Source: a virus
DNA length: 39,408 nt
Direction: 5' to 3' (one strand)
IMG/VR virus record: IMGVR_UViG_3300025093_000005
Location: 1-39,408 of that record
The position numbers were made by a program, and so were the translations under genes. The number at the start of each line of letters is the position of its first letter. Positions within the stretch are counted from its first letter, which is position 1. The notes beneath the pieces are model-generated. The model was not told where the DNA came from, did no database searches, and saw nothing but the letters and a program-made list of their open reading frames with translations. Shown here piece by piece: positions 4,411 through 38,947 of the stretch.

Positions 4411-4613
4411 TTCATAACCCTTATAAATTCAACCAACTCAACACTGTCAATAGAAATTAAATTGCTACCATATGTTGATTTCAGCGACTCAATTACATCG
4501 GTAACTCTTTCGCCTTCCTTATACACCGCCTTTTCTGATAAAGACTTATAATCGCTTTCGTGGCCTTTCACTGTTACGGTAGTTTTATAAACTGGATTTT
4601 TAAATGCAAACAT
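4407..4613 (-). CDS. Hypothetical protein
   Basis: A 68-residue protein of unknown function, starting MFAFKNPVYK and ending in a hydrophobic VELVEFIRVMK segment. The ATG at 4613 is preferred to an upstream in-frame start because AAGGAG lies six bases before it. There is a short gap (4614-4665) to the upstream gene, the only one in the cassette. Alternating polar and hydrophobic residues suggest a small alpha/beta domain. No motif gives a role. Confidence 0.7.
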   Translation of the reverse strand: MFAFKNPVYKTTVTVKGHESDYKSLSEKAVYKEGERVTDVIESLKSTYGSNLISIDSVELVEFIRVMK

Positions 4614-4665
4614 ATTTCGCTCCTTATTTTTAAATTCACACAATAACTTTAGCGTTTGGATTTTT

Positions 4666-4914
4666 TCAATCTAAAACCTCGATAATTACAGTTCTTTTAA
4701 CCTTAACAACATCACCTTTGCAAACCTCTTTTACGTAGTGGCTACCAGGCCATGTAAAGTCTAGCGGAAGCATTACGTACCTTTGGTCGCGTAATTCTGC
4801 GTTATGTATGTCGCCGAAACCAAATTCTTTACTACGCCCATCATCGTAGGTTTCTTGCCAAGCTTTCCCATCTTTAACAAGCATTACGCCAGTTTCTTCT
4901 TTTATGTATTTCAC
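4666..4914 (-). CDS. Hypothetical protein
   Basis: An 82-residue protein with a GTG start at 4914, supported by GAGGGG upstream and a GTGA overlap with the previous gene's stop. The C-terminal third (KGDVVKVKRTVIIEVL) looks like a small beta-barrel, and a central segment is rich in D, G and aromatics. I do not recognise the family. It is the middle gene of the inverted cassette and is expected to share the promoter at 5448-5476. Confidence 0.7.
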   Translation of the reverse strand: MKYIKEETGVMLVKDGKAWQETYDDGRSKEFGFGDIHNAELRDQRYVMLPLDFTWPGSHYVKEVCKGDVVKVKRTVIIEVLD

Positions 4915-5072
4915 TTCATCCCCTCAATCATCTTGGTTAATTTATCGTGTAGCTTTTCATTTGCGCAGTAGTTGTCGTATGTGCGACGCGTAATGCCCCA
5001 ATAGTCTAAAAAATCCTGCACCTTGTAGCCCTTCGCGTGAATCTTTCTCGTGTGTTGGTTTGGTTTGCTCAT
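4911..5072 (-). CDS. Small HTH-like protein
   Basis: A 53-residue basic protein with the layout KVQDFLDYWGITRRTYDNY, resembling the two helices of a DNA-binding helix-turn-helix. The ATG at 5072 overlaps the upstream stop (ATGA), and its TGA overlaps the GTG of the next gene. It could be the cassette's own regulator or a short repressor of neighbouring late genes. The HTH is inferred by eye only. Confidence 0.6.
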   Translation of the reverse strand: MSKPNQHTRKIHAKGYKVQDFLDYWGITRRTYDNYCANEKLHDKLTKMIEGMK

Positions 5073-27574: not shown

Positions 27575-29413
27575 TTAACTTGCTTTTTCTTCCCTGCCAC
27601 TTCGGAACTTTTTACGGTTTACTACACTGAATCCTTTGTCATTGATTCGGTGCGTGATGTGGGTTGGCGTATCTAGCATTGCCTGATTTTTTATCATGCT
27701 GTCAATGTGCATTTTGGCAAACGTTCGGCGAAATGCATTGCCCTGGATATGGTCAGACACAAATTTAAACCACCGCGCTTTTTGGAACTGTTTATCACTG
27801 GCGGGGTCGTAAAATTCAGTCGCCACCTCTGGCAACTCTTCACCGTTTTTGTGATAAGTGCTATCAAGCGTATAAGTTAATCGAAGCCCTCCGCTTTTAT
27901 TTTTTTCAAGAGTCATGCTAATGACCGGTTTATAGTCTGCATCACTATATGACTTGCGTGAAAGCGCTGTGTTTGGGTCGATTAGTATTGCATCGCATTT
28001 GCGGCATGTGCGCGCTGTGGGGGCGTTTTCTGTGTGGCAGTGCAGACACATCACAAATTTAAAATAATGCTCACATCGACCGTCTGTGGACGTAGAATCA
28101 ATACCGCGACACCTCACGGCATGTTCGCTGTTTTCAGTTTTACATTTTGGGCATTCTTGGGTTTTGTTATTCGCTTTTGCTTTTTCTGCAGATGCAATAT
28201 CGGTTATTGGGTGGTCGTAAATATCCCCAGCAACTTCCATTGTGTCGGTAAAATCAAGAACAAGACCATCATACTTCTGCAGACCTGATTCTATCTGGTC
28301 GTCTTTTAAAAGCCTTAAAACCCTGCCTATTAGTTGTATTAAGTATCTTAGGCTGCCTATTTTTCTTAAAATTACACAAGTATCCCAATACGGAATGTTA
28401 ATCCCTTGACCTAAGCAACTAACCTGCAGTGTGTATTTTATCTTACCGCTTTTTGCATCCTTTAAAATCCTCCTTCTTTCTGTAGCCCCAGTGCTGTCTG
28501 TAACTATTCCATAGCTTCCAACAGGTAAATGTTTGGCTACTTCCTCGCAATGTTTTTTGCCAGCGCAGGTTATAAGTACGCCAAGTCTATCTCTGGTTCT
28601 TTCTATAACTTCTTCTACAATTAACTGTGTTGTTGTCTTGTCTTTTAATATCTCCCTTTGCATGGCTGCCAGCTCTTTACTGCCAAAATCAGATCCATTT
28701 TCATTTTTTGACGGACTAAAAGATTCAAGATGATAATTGTGATCATCATCACTTCCCCATCCGAAAACAGGCGGAACTAAATACCCATCATTAACAAGTT
28801 GATAAGTTCCAACCTCTGACAGTTTTTTCTTCCAAAATCCACCTATGATGCTTTCGCTACCTCTGAATGGAGAGCCAGAGTAACCAATAATCCTTACTGC
28901 AGGGTTTATGTTTATAAAGTGAGCAAGTATAACTGCGTATTGTGAATACTTTGGCTTTCCATTTTGGTCTTTATTTTCATAAATATTAAATCCGTTTTGA
29001 TAATCATTTAGGCATTCGTAAATTTCCTGATGGTTAACCTCGTGGCACTCATCAATAGCTATAAAATGAAATTTCCTTGATTTAAATTCTGTATTTAAAG
29101 ACCTATAAACAGTTCCCTCACTTCCAAAGACTGCAGGATAGTATGACGACTTCATACCAAGTGACGCGCTAAATATTGAGCACTTACCGCCAATCATTTT
29201 GTAATCATCGGCATCCTGTTCTACAAGTTCTCCCTGCCTAGCTAATACTAAGCAACTGCCGCCTTTATCACAAACATGTTTTACTGCGAACGCTATCTGC
29301 AGAGTCTTTCCAGCTCCAACTGATTGATCGTGAATTGCATAATCTTTTGAATTCTTACAATGCTCAACTGTAGCTTTGTGCGCATCATCTTGGTAGTACC
29401 TTAGCTCAATCAT
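27575..29413 (-). CDS. SF2 DEAD/DEAH-type helicase with zinc cluster
   Basis: A 612-residue helicase. Motif I is SVGAGKT (31-37), motif II is IDECHE (120-125), and motif III is seen as GYSGSPFRGS. The RecA-2 half carries CLGQGINIPYWDT and LIQLIGRVLR (motifs V-VI). From about 418 a zinc cluster (CPKC, CEHYF, CLHC, CRKCDA) splits the second half. It is of the phage replication/repair type and may act like a UvsW or DEAD-box remodelling enzyme. GGAGG lies just before the ATG at 29413, which overlaps the HNH stop (ATGA). Confidence 0.9.
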   Translation of the reverse strand: MIELRYYQDDAHKATVEHCKNSKDYAIHDQSVGAGKTLQIAFAVKHVCDKGGSCLVLARQGELVEQDADDYKMIGGKCSIFSASLGMKSSYYPAVFGSEGTVYRSLNTEFKSRKFHFIAIDECHEVNHQEIYECLNDYQNGFNIYENKDQNGKPKYSQYAVILAHFININPAVRIIGYSGSPFRGSESIIGGFWKKKLSEVGTYQLVNDGYLVPPVFGWGSDDDHNYHLESFSPSKNENGSDFGSKELAAMQREILKDKTTTQLIVEEVIERTRDRLGVLITCAGKKHCEEVAKHLPVGSYGIVTDSTGATERRRILKDAKSGKIKYTLQVSCLGQGINIPYWDTCVILRKIGSLRYLIQLIGRVLRLLKDDQIESGLQKYDGLVLDFTDTMEVAGDIYDHPITDIASAEKAKANNKTQECPKCKTENSEHAVRCRGIDSTSTDGRCEHYFKFVMCLHCHTENAPTARTCRKCDAILIDPNTALSRKSYSDADYKPVISMTLEKNKSGGLRLTYTLDSTYHKNGEELPEVATEFYDPASDKQFQKARWFKFVSDHIQGNAFRRTFAKMHIDSMIKNQAMLDTPTHITHRINDKGFSVVNRKKFRSGREEKAS

Positions 29414-30081
29414 TTTTCCTCCGGCATATCTGGCCAATATCTATTCTTTTTTGACATATTAATTGATGGTTCCATTATCTGCAGATTGTCATAGCAATGA
29501 AGGCCGCAAACTAAATCTGAAATAATTGGAACAATGTGGTCTACTTGCCATCCTCTTTTTACAGCTTGCTTGTATACTTCATTAACTTTTTCAGATTCAA
29601 ACCACTTAGGCGTTGCTCTTAAAACAAGCTTTTTCCTCATCTTCTGGTAAGCTCTAACTTTACCCCTGTTCTTATCTCTCCACTTTTTGTGCCTTTTTCT
29701 GCAATCAGATCTCGTTTTAATAGAGTTTTCTTTATTTGCTTTATTCCTGCATGATTTACATAAAAGCACTTTTGATGAATCAGTTATTTTTGATTTATGA
29801 AAATTGTCAGAGTTATTAACTTTTAATTCATTGCATCTTCTGCAGCAAATAAACCCATTTGGAACGCCATCAGATATAAACGCAACCTCCGTTTTTCTCT
29901 TCCCTTCTCTTTTGCATCTTTTGCACTGTGACTGTCTTAAATTCCTGTTTCTGGAATTTATATAAAAATCATCAACTGACTTTTCTATTCTGCACTTGCT
30001 GCAGGTCTTTTTTTCGATGCGCGGCAACTCTGCACTTGGCACTACAGAATCTAGCCCTTTTTGTTCCGTGGAATTTTTCAT
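29410..30081 (-). CDS. HNH endonuclease with zinc clusters
   Basis: A 223-residue protein. The C-terminal HNH core is VDHIVPI with H182, DNLQIM with N199 and MSKKNRYW with N213. Ahead of it are two Cys clusters (CSKC...CKRCKR and CCRRC...CKSC) that bind zinc. The start is uncertain: ATG 30081 has a poor ribosome site and lies inside the zinc-finger ORF at 29972-30112 in another frame; a TTG near 30027 just before the first zinc cluster is an alternative. It may be a free-standing homing-type nuclease or a replication nuclease; it sits between primase and helicase, not by the terminase. Confidence 0.8.
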   Translation of the reverse strand: MKNSTEQKGLDSVVPSAELPRIEKKTCSKCRIEKSVDDFYINSRNRNLRQSQCKRCKREGKRKTEVAFISDGVPNGFICCRRCNELKVNNSDNFHKSKITDSSKVLLCKSCRNKANKENSIKTRSDCRKRHKKWRDKNRGKVRAYQKMRKKLVLRATPKWFESEKVNEVYKQAVKRGWQVDHIVPIISDLVCGLHCYDNLQIMEPSINMSKKNRYWPDMPEEK

Positions 30082-30112
30082 TGCAATTCTCGCATTTCTT
30101 TTCAGTAATCAT
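29972..30112 (-). CDS. 46-residue zinc-finger protein, overlapping the HNH gene
   Basis: A minus-strand ORF in a different frame from the HNH gene: MITEKKCENCNEKFHGTKRA, then RFCSAKCRVAAHRKKD. The CxxC...FCSxKCR...HR layout is a widespread small zinc-binding pattern. GAGG lies five bases before its ATG, a better ribosome site than that of the HNH ORF. The overlap with the HNH frame is 55-110 bp depending on the HNH start. Likely a real gene, possibly translationally coupled. Confidence 0.65.
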   Translation of the reverse strand: MITEKKCENCNEKFHGTKRARFCSAKCRVAAHRKKDLQQVQNRKVS

Positions 30113-30146
30113 AATGTCCTCATTGTAACGTAGTTGCGTAACATAA

Positions 30147-30950
30147 TCAAAGCCTATTCATTTTCGTTAATTTGTAATTATCTAATTTCACCCACCTCAT
30201 TTCGCGAGACAGCCAATCGTCATCATCTGGCCGCAATACAGGTGTTATATTCATTTCACCATTGCACCACTTGCACAAATATTTAAGCGCATACGGCGAC
30301 CATGTGACGGCGACATTGATATTGTATTTATTTGCAATGTATCGACCATCTGAAAGCGCTATGCAAGCGGCCCATTTATTTTCGTCATTCACCTTTACCG
30401 GCGTAAAACCGCTATAACTCAAACCGCCAGCAATAAATTCCATATCTTTGCCGTGACCAAAGTGCGCCGCGTTAATCAACTCAAAGTCGCTGTTATAAAT
30501 TGGTAGCATAAAGCCGGTTTTGTAGCGGTAAAAATCCACCCCGCCCACGCTTTGGAGTACGCATTTGCTCATGTATTTATTTGCTAAATCACCGTCCTCC
30601 TTGTGGTCGTCAGGTAGCTTAAATCGCTGTATCTTTGCTGCATTCTTTTGGTTTTTAATAATTTCAGCAGTTGGCTTTAAATCAATTTCGCCGCCAAGCT
30701 CTTTATATGCGTCAACAAAATCAACGCCGCTAAACTCTTTCACAAAGTCTATTACATCACCGTGAGCGCCGCAGCCGAAACAATGGTAAAACTGTTTACT
30801 TTCATCGACTGTAAACGATGGTGTTTTTTCGCTGTGAAAAGGGCAGCAGGAGGAATAGTTTTTCCCTGATTTTTTTAGTGGTACGTATCGACCAATCACA
30901 TCAACGATGTTGTGTGATGATTTGACATACTCAATATCGTGCTTATCCAT
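30147..30950 (-). CDS. DNA primase with CHC2 zinc finger
   Basis: A 267-residue protein. The first 100 residues are a DnaG-type CHC2 zinc-binding domain: C36-P-F-H39, FHS-EKTPSF, C57-FG-C60-GA-HGD. The rest fits a small TOPRIM-like half ending PVLRPDDDDW, but the usual motif with EG is replaced by SDG, so the catalytic Glu is not visible. It would recognise start sites and make or help make primers. The ATG overlaps the stop of the DUF3987 gene (TAATG), giving an ATPase-primase pair. Confidence 0.85.
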   Translation of the reverse strand: MDKHDIEYVKSSHNIVDVIGRYVPLKKSGKNYSSCCPFHSEKTPSFTVDESKQFYHCFGCGAHGDVIDFVKEFSGVDFVDAYKELGGEIDLKPTAEIIKNQKNAAKIQRFKLPDDHKEDGDLANKYMSKCVLQSVGGVDFYRYKTGFMLPIYNSDFELINAAHFGHGKDMEFIAGGLSYSGFTPVKVNDENKWAACIALSDGRYIANKYNINVAVTWSPYALKYLCKWCNGEMNITPVLRPDDDDWLSREMRWVKLDNYKLTKMNRL

Positions 30951-32503
30951 TATTTAAGCCTAGGGTTGATGTAAACATCAGTGCCAACAACAACAAGATA
31001 GTTATGCTCTTCCATAATCGGTAACACTTCATCACGCAGCTTTTTGGTCAGATTGCGGGATCCTTTAAACGGTTTAACGTTTTTTACCTTGTCTCGTATG
31101 GATGCCATCGTTGTTTTTAGCTTTCCCTTTTCAGCCATGCTGGTAATAATTACGCGTATTTTCTCAACTTCTGATTTTTTACCTACATAACCAAGCGTGT
31201 CGGATGCGCTGATAAACGTTTTTGCAAGCTCTTCAAATATTCCAATGGCCCACAAAGCGTAATCTTCGTTAATGGCGTTTGACCTGCTGCCGCCGTCCTG
31301 CCAATGGTCGGCAACATGAAAAACCGATGCTATTTTTCTGATATGCTTATCCGCTTTACCCATAAAGCCAGTGATAACCGCGTTTGAGTATTCGCCATCC
31401 TCACCAAGCTCTGGCTCTATCTTTGTTTTGTATGCGTTAATGCATTCGTTCGCTGATTCGGTAAAATGCAAACTTACATCATTTTCTCGAATAACGTTTT
31501 CTATCATCGATTCATAACGGCTGAACAAAGACTTATCAAACCTGTAAGGCTTATTCATATCACGCATACCAAGCTTTGACTTTTCACACAGTAGTAAAAA
31601 ACGCTCAGTCAAACCACGCCCGCTTGATGATGCGGAAAGTATCGTATCAATGCTGTCATCTTGCGCAATTACGCTAATAGATGCCCTCACATGGCCGCTA
31701 TAACCTTTTCGGCCAACGCGCCTGGTATTAATATACTCACCATCCCATGCATTCAAAATTAACCCGATGTTTGATTTAGACTTGCCATCATCGCCATAAA
31801 CAGCGCCAGTAATAACGTTTATTGATTCTGCTTCGGCGCTAACTATGCTGAACATTCCGTCCTGCTCGCGACAAACCATCTCAGCGGCTTCTATGGTAGT
31901 ATCCGTCAATGTGCCAGACCATTCTGGTATTTTAGATAGTCTCTCTTCCTTGTCGCGTATCTTGTCATAAATTTCGTCGTGCTCGCCTTCCTTGCTTTTC
32001 TCTTTGGTCAGCTCCTTTTCAAGCCTTGCGATTTCTTTCGTTAATGCGCGTCGCTCTGAATCGGTCTCTTCATTTATTTTTTTGTAGGCACGGAATATCG
32101 GCGCATAAAGTTTGCCATTTACCGCGCTTTTACCTGTGCTTGGCGGCTGGGCAGTGACAATGTATAAATTGCACGGTATAGAGTCGAAACCATACTCAAT
32201 TTTAAATGCCTTTGTCATTGCTGATGCCGTGCACCCCATGGCATGGAGAAAGCATGTGTTAATCGGGAATTGAACATTGCCAGCAATTTGTTTTGCTACT
32301 TCCGTTAAAATATCTCCGCGCTGACTTGTGGCTATTTCTGGCTCTGGCCGTTCAACTTCAATTTCAATCGGCACAACATTGGGCCACACGGCCACTTTTG
32401 TTATTAATGGGCTTCCGGTTGACGCTGCCGCCTGAGCAATCGAGCATCCGTTATCAACCGCATACTGCTCAAGGTCGTCTATACGGTATGATTCGTTCAG
32501 CAT
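30950..32503 (-). CDS. DUF3987 (YfjI-like) phage replication ATPase
   Basis: A 517-residue protein. Walker A-like PPSTGKS is at about 121-127; later motifs are VSAEAESIN, NAWDGEY and SSSGRGLTERFLLL, all typical of DUF3987 proteins. A coiled-coil insertion (RRALTKEIARLEKELTKE) follows Walker A. Members are paired with small primases in phages and mobile elements and are thought to be replicative helicase-like. The ATG overlaps the repressor stop by 7 bp and the gene is the first long one after the control region. Confidence 0.85.
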   Translation of the reverse strand: MLNESYRIDDLEQYAVDNGCSIAQAAASTGSPLITKVAVWPNVVPIEIEVERPEPEIATSQRGDILTEVAKQIAGNVQFPINTCFLHAMGCTASAMTKAFKIEYGFDSIPCNLYIVTAQPPSTGKSAVNGKLYAPIFRAYKKINEETDSERRALTKEIARLEKELTKEKSKEGEHDEIYDKIRDKEERLSKIPEWSGTLTDTTIEAAEMVCREQDGMFSIVSAEAESINVITGAVYGDDGKSKSNIGLILNAWDGEYINTRRVGRKGYSGHVRASISVIAQDDSIDTILSASSSGRGLTERFLLLCEKSKLGMRDMNKPYRFDKSLFSRYESMIENVIRENDVSLHFTESANECINAYKTKIEPELGEDGEYSNAVITGFMGKADKHIRKIASVFHVADHWQDGGSRSNAINEDYALWAIGIFEELAKTFISASDTLGYVGKKSEVEKIRVIITSMAEKGKLKTTMASIRDKVKNVKPFKGSRNLTKKLRDEVLPIMEEHNYLVVVGTDVYINPRLK

Positions 32504-32742
32504 TGTTCATCAATCCAGCTATCAACATCCGGTCTCAACTCGCGCTTAGTGATTGCGCCATTAGTGATGCGCTCTGCGTCAATGGCGCATGAAGCTGAAA
32601 TTCTCCCGCGCTTAATCCAGTTCTGCACAACCTGTGGTGATACATCTAAATGCCTGGCAAGTCTTGACTGATTGCCTGCGTACTCAACCAGGCGAATTAA
32701 CGCGCTGGCTTGTTCTGTTTTAATTTGTTCAAACGATTTCAT
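32497..32742 (-). CDS. YdaS/Cro-like repressor
   Basis: An 81-residue HTH protein: ALIRLVEYAGNQSRLARHLD, then VSPQVVQNWIKRGRIS, AIDAERITNGAITKRELRPDV. This is the YdaS_antitoxin/Cro layout. The ATG at 32742 has AGGGG upstream, ten bases before it. As first gene of the leftward operon beside the 32845-33126 array, it probably regulates both divergent early transcripts. In lambdoid phages such proteins turn off early genes; no CI-like partner with a protease domain is present. Confidence 0.85.
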   Translation of the reverse strand: MKSFEQIKTEQASALIRLVEYAGNQSRLARHLDVSPQVVQNWIKRGRISASCAIDAERITNGAITKRELRPDVDSWIDEQC

Positions 32743-32769: not shown

Positions 32770-32799
32770 AATATAATTCAATATAAACAATAATTGCAA
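32770..32799 (-). promoter_or_regulatory. Leftward early promoter
   Basis: Minus strand: TTGCAA (32799-32794), 18 bp, TATATT (32775-32770), start predicted about 20 bases before the repressor ATG. The 12-mer AATTCAATATAA just inside it recurs at the cassette promoter (about 5460). Confidence 0.55.
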
Positions 32800-32844
32800 C
32801 ATTTAATTGCCAATAAAGTAAATGGGCACTTTTTGTGATTTATG

Positions 32845-33126
32845 GGGCAATTTGTACGCCCTTAGATTTATGTATATTTATCATGAGCTTACAGTTATTT
32901 GTGGGTTATTGTGGGCGCTTGTATGCCCTCTGTTTTTCCCTTTAAATACAATAATTTAAATATAAATATATATAAAAAGGGCGTAGTAGTATTTATTTAT
33001 TTATTATTTATATAATTTTACTGTTATTTGTAGGTATATACACGGGTACAAAGGTACGCCCATTTTTGCTAAAATTGACGTATATTGTTGATTTATAACA
33101 GTAATACTGTGGGCATTTAGTTGCCC
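32845..33126. repeat. GGGC...GCCC array every ~66 bp: candidate origin/operators
   Basis: Elements begin at 32845, 32913, 32979 (half site), 33044 (imperfect) and 33111, spaced 68, 66, 65 and 67 bp. Three are perfect GGGC-N8/9-GCCC (32845-32861, 32913-32928, 33111-33126). Flanks share TTATTTGT(G/A)GGT. Between them lie AT-rich runs, notably 32950-33018. The 465-bp region between the divergent early operons holds no convincing gene. Iterons plus an AT-rich stretch beside primase genes suggest a replication origin; they could also be repressor operators. Confidence 0.75.
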
Positions 33127-33207
33127 TTTTTATGCCCAGTAGCGCCCATAACTATCTGTGGTAGTATTGAAGACCAATAAAACTAAGGCTTGCGGCGTGG
33201 GCGCACG

Positions 33208-33378
33208 ATGAAACCCTACCAAATCAAACTGACCTACAAAGGCAAGCAATACCAATTCGCCATGCTATCCGACACCGACGACATCGAGCAGAGTTTGCGG
33301 GAACGGTTTCCAGGGTGTGAGTGTGATGTGGTAGGACCAGATGATAAAACACAAAAAAGTGTTGACAAACAAAAATGA
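33208..33378 (+). CDS. 56-residue hypothetical protein
   Basis: First gene of the rightward early block: MKPYQIKLTYKGKQYQFAML and 36 more residues, a beta-rich first half then an acidic, Lys-rich tail. ATG at 33208 is chosen over an earlier in-frame start at 33190. No strong ribosome site is visible. The strong promoter at 33362-33389 lies in its last codons. Confidence 0.55.
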   Translation: MKPYQIKLTYKGKQYQFAMLSDTDDIEQSLRERFPGCECDVVGPDDKTQKSVDKQK

Positions 33379-33389
33379 GTAGGTATACT
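33362..33389 (+). promoter_or_regulatory. Strong sigma70-like promoter
   Basis: TTGACA (33362-33367), 16 bp, TATACT (33384-33389): the best plus-strand promoter in the window. Start predicted near 33396, just before GAGGAG (33404-33409) and the ATG at 33419. It should drive the rightward early genes. Confidence 0.8.
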
Positions 33390-36928: not shown

Positions 36929-38947
36929 ATGGCATTCGACAAGGCATATTTAAAACTCAAAAAGAACAATCCGCGAGGCATTCCAGACGAATATACGTAC
37001 TGGGGTAGAGACGACACAATCGCAGAAATCACAGCGACTGGTTATTTTGACGAATCCGCATTTGCTCCAAAGGAAGACCCGCGCCGAAATCTAACAGACC
37101 CACCCGACACCGACGCTTATGCTATTCACGTTCAAGCCTCCGACGGCCCATACGAGGTGCAGTTGGTTGGGGGTGTGGCTAGTGTTGTTTCTGGAAGCCC
37201 TATAGAATTAAGCGCCAACTCGGTAGGAGCAAGGCCGCAAGCAGGCTTTGATAATGCTGATGCTATTGAGTTGGCTGCAAGTCGCATTAAAGAAGGCAAG
37301 ATTACTTTTGATTCCGGAGAGTACGAGATTCATCGAACGATTTATATCCCTGTTGGAGTGTGGTTAGAAGGGAAAAGCGGCAGTAGAGGCTTTGATGATG
37401 ATGCTAACGCCACTGTTTTCAAGTCCGTAGTTGGCGGCTCATACGTTGAGGATTTCCTTTTCTTTATGAATATAGACCCAGATGGTGATACTACCACTTG
37501 GGTTAAGCAGTTTCCCAACAATGACTCTGGCGGCGCCATGCACGTCCATATTGACGGCACCGCTACAGGCGGCATCCATGGATTTAAGTTTGGCGGATCT
37601 CACGTGTTTAGGCATATCACGGCAACGAAAATCGGCTCTATAATAAGAAAACCTTCCGGCCTGTATACTGACAAGCTTGAGATTAGCCAAATACATGCAA
37701 TAGAACGCTCCGACGATACGAGTTGGTTTATAGATTTACCAGGTCTTGGCGATGGCTACATAATCTCCAACATTGCCCCAGCTTATCTCAACCTTGATGG
37801 TACAGGGATAACAAATGGTGTTAATTTAGGGGCTTGCAGAAGCGGCCAGTTGATCAATCTCATAAACGGTCGGCACATGATAAATGGCGCAAAATCTGTC
37901 GAGGTTGTCGGGTGTCACATAGAGGGCGGTAATTTCACTTTCAAAGACTGCTCTGCACACATTCGTGATGGTATCATGTTTTGCGAAGAGGATGTTGATG
38001 GGCAAATTATCACTGACAGCGATAATGGCACATTCGGCAACAGATATACGCTTAAAATCAGCAATATGATTTTTGACCAGTCCATGAATAGACGTGGCGG
38101 CTTTCAGGCCACAGCACGCCCTGATGTTGTGTGCAGTCAATATTTTGACATTCAGATAGTTGACTGCAAGAGGAAAATAACCGACAGCAGCAATGTAGCA
38201 ATGCAGCAATACACAGGCATATTGTGCGGTACTGATACTACTACGATGCTTGATGATTTTAATAATTATTCTCACGTTCTTAGTAGAAAATGCAACATAA
38301 ACGGTCAGCGAGTAAATAAAACTTTTGATATTGTTAGTCAGTTTCGAACGTTTGGCGGCATCACTGGAGTAACTGAGGCTGTTGACTCTGCAACGTACCA
38401 AGGCCCTACTGGTACTTATTATTATCAAGGGCAAATACTTCAAGATCCAATTCGCATGATGGGGCGCGGGGCTACGCTAGGCGAGGTCTCGTTGGCTCTT
38501 ACAAATGGCAGCGATTTGGCTAAATTATCGATAGGCTGGAATCTTGTAGAGAACAAAACAGATGTAATCTTGAGGGTATACAAGGGCGTCTCAACTGGCT
38601 CATACAATCAGTACGTAGATATACCACTACTAAATGCTTCTTTTTTCTATGACGATGGCAATGCCATAAATGGGTACGTCTGGAAATCCAGAACAGCCTC
38701 TGGAGTATCTTCACTGAATGGCGGCATCAATGGCGCAATAAGGTCTCTCGATGGCGTCATAACATCATTTACAGATGGAGCTAACGCAACCGTAGGAACT
38801 TGGTCTAAAGGTGACTTGTTGATTAAACGGAATCCTACGCTAGGTGGTGGCGGCACTACTTTTAATGCTAGATTCCTCAGATTAACCGACGGCTCTGCGC
38901 ATGTAAAAAACACAGATTGGCTGTTTCAGCAGGATACGCAGGGATAA
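36929..38947 (+). CDS. Second tailspike, pectate-lyase-like beta-helix
   Basis: A 672-residue protein. The first ~90 residues hold YWGRDDTIAEITATGYFDES and DAYAIHVQASDGPYEVQLV, a module typical of phage structural proteins and probably the virion anchor. From about 100, FDNADAIELAASRIKEGKIT leads into a right-handed beta-helix (GVWLEGKSG, repeated N/G-rich coils) to about 480. The rest is beta-rich, ending in a receptor or trimer domain. Likely depolymerises or binds a surface sugar. First gene of the late operon; GAGGG lies before the ATG. Confidence 0.8.
   Translation: MAFDKAYLKLKKNNPRGIPDEYTYWGRDDTIAEITATGYFDESAFAPKEDPRRNLTDPPDTDAYAIHVQASDGPYEVQLVGGVASVVSGSPIELSANSVGARPQAGFDNADAIELAASRIKEGKITFDSGEYEIHRTIYIPVGVWLEGKSGSRGFDDDANATVFKSVVGGSYVEDFLFFMNIDPDGDTTTWVKQFPNNDSGGAMHVHIDGTATGGIHGFKFGGSHVFRHITATKIGSIIRKPSGLYTDKLEISQIHAIERSDDTSWFIDLPGLGDGYIISNIAPAYLNLDGTGITNGVNLGACRSGQLINLINGRHMINGAKSVEVVGCHIEGGNFTFKDCSAHIRDGIMFCEEDVDGQIITDSDNGTFGNRYTLKISNMIFDQSMNRRGGFQATARPDVVCSQYFDIQIVDCKRKITDSSNVAMQQYTGILCGTDTTTMLDDFNNYSHVLSRKCNINGQRVNKTFDIVSQFRTFGGITGVTEAVDSATYQGPTGTYYYQGQILQDPIRMMGRGATLGEVSLALTNGSDLAKLSIGWNLVENKTDVILRVYKGVSTGSYNQYVDIPLLNASFFYDDGNAINGYVWKSRTASGVSSLNGGINGAIRSLDGVITSFTDGANATVGTWSKGDLLIKRNPTLGGGGTTFNARFLRLTDGSAHVKNTDWLFQQDTQG

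Follow-up and report, generated by a model that had tools for sequence, protein, structure and literature searches.

What is the function of the noncoding gap that divides two divergent operons in this phage genome? The window analyzed here is a 39,408-nucleotide stretch of viral DNA (IMG/VR record IMGVR_UViG_3300025093_000005), and the gap, 465 bp long and 67.5% AT, runs from an HTH gene that starts at 32742 and is read leftward to the first rightward gene, which starts at 33208. The HTH gene encodes a YdaS/Cro-type regulator (32497-32742, minus strand; PF15943, E 1.2e-18, and PHROGs) and lies between the gap and the gene for a DUF3987 protein (30950-32503, minus strand; Pfam PF13148, E 2.5e-43; phrog_2373, helicase), just downstream of which is a primase with a DnaG-type zinc ribbon (CHC2; 30147-30950, minus strand; Pfam and PHROGs). 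Among the rightward genes, a 672-aa ORF at 36929-38947 had no Pfam or PHROGs match. A first-pass annotation had described the gap as carrying GGGC...GCCC dyads phased at about 66 bp, and proposed that these form a replication origin or serve cooperative repressor binding. The AT-rich, noncoding setting between divergent operons was correctly described; the anatomy of the array and its likely function required a closer look.

The enrichment of GGGC in the gap is real. Counting both strands, there are 12 sites, whereas 5000 dinucleotide shuffles averaged 3.3 and reached at most 9 (p 2e-4); of 419 tiles of 465 bp across the window, none elsewhere reaches 12. The word is only four bases long, and dyads by themselves are not unusual: GGGC-N6-12-GCCC occurs five times across the window versus 2.3 expected, and 9 of 100 shuffles reach five. 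Nevertheless, the density of the sites, the bias in their conservation and the independent recurrence of such arrays in relatives make it exceedingly improbable that GGGC simply clustered by chance in an AT-rich gap. GGGC does start at 32845, 32913, 32979 and 33111, and the three full GGGC-N8/9-GCCC dyads (32845-32861, 32913-32928 and 33111-33126) are exact, but the fifth claimed GGGC, at 33044, is actually GGGT, and the spacer word said to be shared (ACAGTTATTTGTGGGT / ACTGTTATTTGTAGGT) is present in only two of the four spacers. The five starts on which the phase was built are indeed regular (68, 66, 65 and 67 bp), but this regularity does not extend to all 12 GGGC/GCCC sites, for which a Rayleigh test of periods from 40 to 100 bp finds none that is significant (p 0.11). 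Among the omitted sites that fall off the phase are one GGGC (32824) and two GCCC (33134 and 33144); another GGGC, at 33199, lies close to the beginning of the next gene. No 5-, 6- or 7-mer of the region is significant alone, the iterons being short and degenerate.

Which parts of these sites matter was suggested by the nearest relative, L001, an IMG/VR contig whose helicase is 70% identical and whose gap could be aligned with this one (75% identity, aligned columns only). Of the half-sites that face the AT-rich core, L001 keeps seven of eight, and of those that face away none of four (one-sided Fisher p about 0.01, calculated by hand from these counts). The inward half-sites on the left are on the plus strand, at 32824-32827 (GGGC, which is GGGT in L001), 32845-32848, 32913-32916 and 32979-32982, with GGG kept at the last three; the one at 32979-32982 is the inner iteron AAAAAGGGCGTAG and sits inside the AT-rich core. 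Those on the right are on the minus strand, at 33058-33061 (TACGCCCAT, conserved), 33123-33126 (GCCC conserved), 33134-33137 (GCC kept) and 33144-33147 (CCC alone kept). Not conserved are the outward halves of the first two dyads and of the last one (32858-32861 and 32925-32928, both minus strand, and 33111-33114, plus strand) and the GGGT half-site at 33044-33047 (plus strand), which had been called an imperfect dyad. Because the outward halves are lost and the inward ones retained, the palindromes are probably incidental and the conserved unit is a directional half-site, with GGGC as its core and AAAA(A/T)GGGCGTA as a fuller form. Spacings of 68 and 67 bp on the left side, counted on the sequence, are retained in L001. 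More distant relatives space their iterons at 9-10 bp or irregularly, however, and the 66-bp phase therefore does not hold in general. With the outward halves unconserved, the period at p 0.11 and the spacing different in relatives, we rejected the description of the array as phased dyads.

The same alignment bears on the reading of the dyads as intrinsic terminators or RNA hairpins. Two of them, 32913-32928 and 33111-33126, are followed by T runs and score as weakly terminator-like on the plus strand (2 vs 0.4 expected), but their stems have just five pairs, there is no upstream plus-strand gene for them to terminate, the dyad at 33111-33126 is lost in L001, and an Rfam search returned nothing. 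We therefore regard such a role as very improbable. A search for distant DNA similarity to the array region among phage records was likewise without a match.

Between the two inverted iteron sets lies an AT-rich core (32938-33041) that is a candidate DNA unwinding element. It contains short tandem repeats of AATATA (32953-32978) and TATT (32990-33011), and the 60 bp centered at 32990 are the most AT-rich 60-bp stretch of the window (AT fraction 0.88). The cumulative GC-skew minimum, at 33000, is in line with an origin here but is confounded by the switch in gene strand that occurs there too. On the basis of the GGGC enrichment, the alignment with L001 and the comparison with other phages presented below, the whole structure, 32824-33147, is annotated as a candidate replication origin.

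The layout recurs in other phages. Loci were collected by helicase scans and tblastn in phage records, and the layout is shared by about 17 phages that encode a homologue of the DUF3987 helicase (26-70% identical), each with its own iteron. The array is found upstream of the regulator-helicase-primase operon, and where it is present the core is 80-93% AT and frequently holds short tandem repeats (GATA, TTAC, TA or TATT). The iterons are AAAGG in L002, AAGGA in L005 and L007, GGGTA in L003, L004 and L010, GGGTAA in L008, GTAAG in L006, L012, L014 and TW1, AGGGG in L013, GGGGTA in Vibrio phage D93, GGGGC in XCL1123 (L018), TGGGGC in IME207, GGGGA in Avpx2 and GTGTCAT in Vibrio phage 1.256.O. In TW1, a Pseudoalteromonas phage, the predicted array is at about 27652-28169 of its record. 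Nearly all of the relatives' regions tested have a 5-, 6- or 7-mer that is enriched relative to shuffles (p 0.05 or less), the exceptions being L001 and XCL1123, which are not enriched at p 0.05. Of 172 sites across the set, 133 face the core and 39 face away from it; the nominal p of 3e-13 for this bias is an overstatement, as the seed motifs were picked by eye and the loci are related rather than independent. What the first-pass annotation had suggested looking for in related phages is thus partly there: the inverted iteron layout recurs, but the 66-bp phase and the dyads are not general. Similarly, its proposal that iterons and AT-rich DNA mark an origin is well supported by the relatives, with the phased palindromic anatomy falling away.

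Not every phage with a helicase homologue has this layout. Plesiomonas phage phiP4-7 (L016:3501-3758) carries one-sided AGGGA direct repeats and no AT core, and no array was found beside the helicase in L011, L015 or AAS23. Outside the phage records, a scan of genome contigs with the helicase alignment yielded no relative, and a search of plasmids with the helicase gave just three weak matches. Long imperfect inverted repeats span the flanks in most relatives, with best scores of 30-46 versus 19-29 for shuffles and lengths of 64 columns in L013 and 45 in L003. A large inverted repeat around the core was nevertheless rejected as a general rule: most relatives show a strong one, but that of T1 is ordinary, and so is that of the window, whose inverted arms rank at the 80th percentile for the genome.

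A second sequence element may accompany the core. GCTACAG occurs seven times in 17 origin regions, compared with 0.67 expected from the flanks, and is found in 6 of the 17 loci. It lies next to the AT core in L005, L012, L014, L017, L002 and L013, despite their differing iterons, and could possibly be the site of a second, common protein. The window has a variant, GCTACTG, within GGGCGCTACTGGGC (33134-33147, minus strand).

The comparison extends to the T1-like phages. E. coli phage T1 (MK213796.1; L031:29851-30378) has TGTAAC/GTTACA seven times where 0.2 are expected; these repeats surround a core of 90% AT that lies upstream of the gene for exodeoxyribonuclease VIII, and their pattern makes 29851-30378 a candidate origin of T1. 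We did not find a T1 origin in the open-access literature searched. At the equivalent place in Salmonella phage PHB07 (Tlsvirus; L032:11726-12186) there is an AT core with weak TGTTC-type repeats.

If the array were instead an operator, its distribution should follow the regulator. According to this alternative, the YdaS/Cro-type HTH protein (32497-32742) would bind the phased GGGC dyads cooperatively and control both divergent operons, as might be expected from the adjacency of its gene, the three palindromic sites and the position of the region between the operons. In most relatives, the helicase does have an HTH gene as its small neighbor, but this neighbor is RHH-like in L012, L014 and XCL1123, AP2-like in IME207 and unrecognised in TW1 (the RHH and AP2 labels were read from the sequences, without a profile search), and the array is present at all of these loci whatever the small gene. 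In turn, five phages outside the helicase group, whose HTH proteins are the closest to this one (48-55% identity), have no GGGC in gaps of only 117-151 bp and carry other replication genes next to the HTH gene; the sites are thus not kept wherever the repressor is kept. The dyads' outward halves are not conserved, and the promoter-like sites, which are consensus matches only, flank the array on either side with none within it. For the leftward operon the site is at 32770-32799 (minus strand; 9 of 12 matches, which is not above shuffle expectation), and for the rightward operon at 33362-33389 (plus strand; TTGACA-16-TATACT, 11 of 12), about 215 bp beyond the array; TTGAC promoters are seen by eye at the equivalent place in several relatives. 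The sequence comparison thus indicates that the array goes with the helicase, independent of the neighboring HTH regulator, and this pattern of presence and absence makes cooperative repressor binding unlikely as the main function. In L002 (4467-4973) and in L005 and L007 (both 4470-4974), two tandem HTH genes rather than one lie between the helicase and the array.

We therefore turn to the DUF3987 protein, which had already been predicted to be a mobile-element helicase in a 2018 survey (PMC5862659). An AF2 model (pLDDT 86), for which 15 sequences from the window and IMG/VR were used, had only MCM subunits as top Foldseek matches (E 1e-4) and aligned with MCM 6mii_B over 270 residues (VIA-align, Z 17.8, 3.7 A), so that the model, a prediction, has the MCM AAA+ fold. 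A PDB sequence search with the helicase profile gave no credible match. The C-terminal 81 residues (about 437-517), modelled alone, form a winged helix whose top match is that of MCM4 (Z 11.2, 71 residues, 1.7 A), with other winged helices at Z 8-10. The protein is thus predicted to be an AAA+ helicase of the MCM-like kind that ends in a winged helix. There is a precedent in SaPI Rep and SCCmec Cch2, where the C-terminal domain recognises the origin iterons, probably with two hexamers at the origin (PMC7581432). Over 15 loci, similarity of the iterons rises with identity of the winged helices (Mantel r 0.31, p 0.003); because the covariation is not significant beyond that with the AAA+ part (partial Mantel p 0.09), we take it as only a hint that the iterons track the winged helix specifically.

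Taken together, the array, the inverted orientation of its iterons, its recurrence and its link to the helicase make it fairly probable, in light of the predicted structure and the analogous systems, that 32824-33147 is a phage replication origin bound by a self-loading DUF3987 initiator helicase. We infer that helicase subunits would bind each of the inverted iteron sets through their winged helices, and that a ring would be assembled at each set, giving two facing rings. These would melt the AT core and depart in opposite directions for a bidirectional start, after which the phage DnaG-type primase (30147-30950) would prime and the host polymerase would begin synthesis. Alternatively, the region may be an origin at which the small regulator or host DnaA recognises the iterons as initiator or loader and recruits the DUF3987 helicase. 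The small DNA-binding proteins are swapped among these phages and the iteron words change too, as this alternative would allow. However, GTAAG is common to L012 and L014 (RHH), L006 (HTH) and TW1 (neither recognised), so the iteron word does not follow the class of the regulator. Iteron similarity tracks, if weakly, the winged helix of the helicase, and inspection by eye showed no DnaA box. On balance, we think recognition by a regulator or DnaA unlikely and favor direct binding by the helicase.

How does such an origin compare with known ones? The lambda origin resembles it in having iterons that adjoin an AT-rich element, in a phage that like this one lacks its own polymerase. In lambda, the iterons bound by the O protein are inside the initiator gene and adjoin the AT-rich part on a single side, and the loader P brings in host DnaB. 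The window array is noncoding rather than within an initiator gene. The Drexlerviridae (T1 and TLS) have a homologous DUF3987 helicase and primase and, in T1, the TGTAAC repeats around an AT-rich gap. In T1, however, the repeats have no clear inverted arrangement, and for TLS a 2024 paper that sought iterons reported none anywhere in the genome (PMC11447400).

The SaPI/PICI origins (pri-rep-ori) go with an initiator helicase whose C-terminal domain binds DNA and with a nearby primase (PMC6092414, PMC7581432); in the window a primase is likewise near, and the counterpart of that domain would be the predicted winged helix. In PICIs, the origin invariably has two sets of iterons around an AT-rich region (PMC6092414), and it is to this two-set layout that the likeness applies; the window iterons are inverted about the core. 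There are also differences. These elements are satellite islands, whereas the window is a complete phage, and their Rep ATPases belong to the DUF927 and D5/Primase_Cterm families rather than to DUF3987. Moreover, their origin is directly downstream of rep, whereas the window array is not immediately 3' of the helicase gene but upstream of the HTH-helicase-primase operon, facing the divergent operon; owing to this difference in position we do not class it as PICI/SaPI-type. The self-loading SCCmec helicases, Cch (MCM-like) and the initiator helicase Cch2, recognise their iterons specifically by a C-terminal domain (PMC7581432), as the window protein may do, but their ATPase families are different, the Cch2 site has three direct iterons, and the element is not a phage.

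A broader proposal, which we hold only tentatively, is that DUF3987 phages widely use SaPI-like, two-sided inverted iteron origins. The MCM-like helicase would read the iterons with its own winged helix and load as a facing pair without the host DnaA/DnaB loaders, and iteron and winged helix would diverge together to give each phage a private origin code. We found no description of an origin of this kind for DUF3987 phages in the open-access literature searched, which is not proof of novelty. A DUF3987 homologue is encoded in more than 1100 GenBank phage records, T1-like phages included. For phages that lack their own polymerase, again including the T1-like ones, the origins are mostly unknown. 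A recognisable origin anatomy tied to so widespread a helicase family would make both the origin and its initiator directly testable in many phages.
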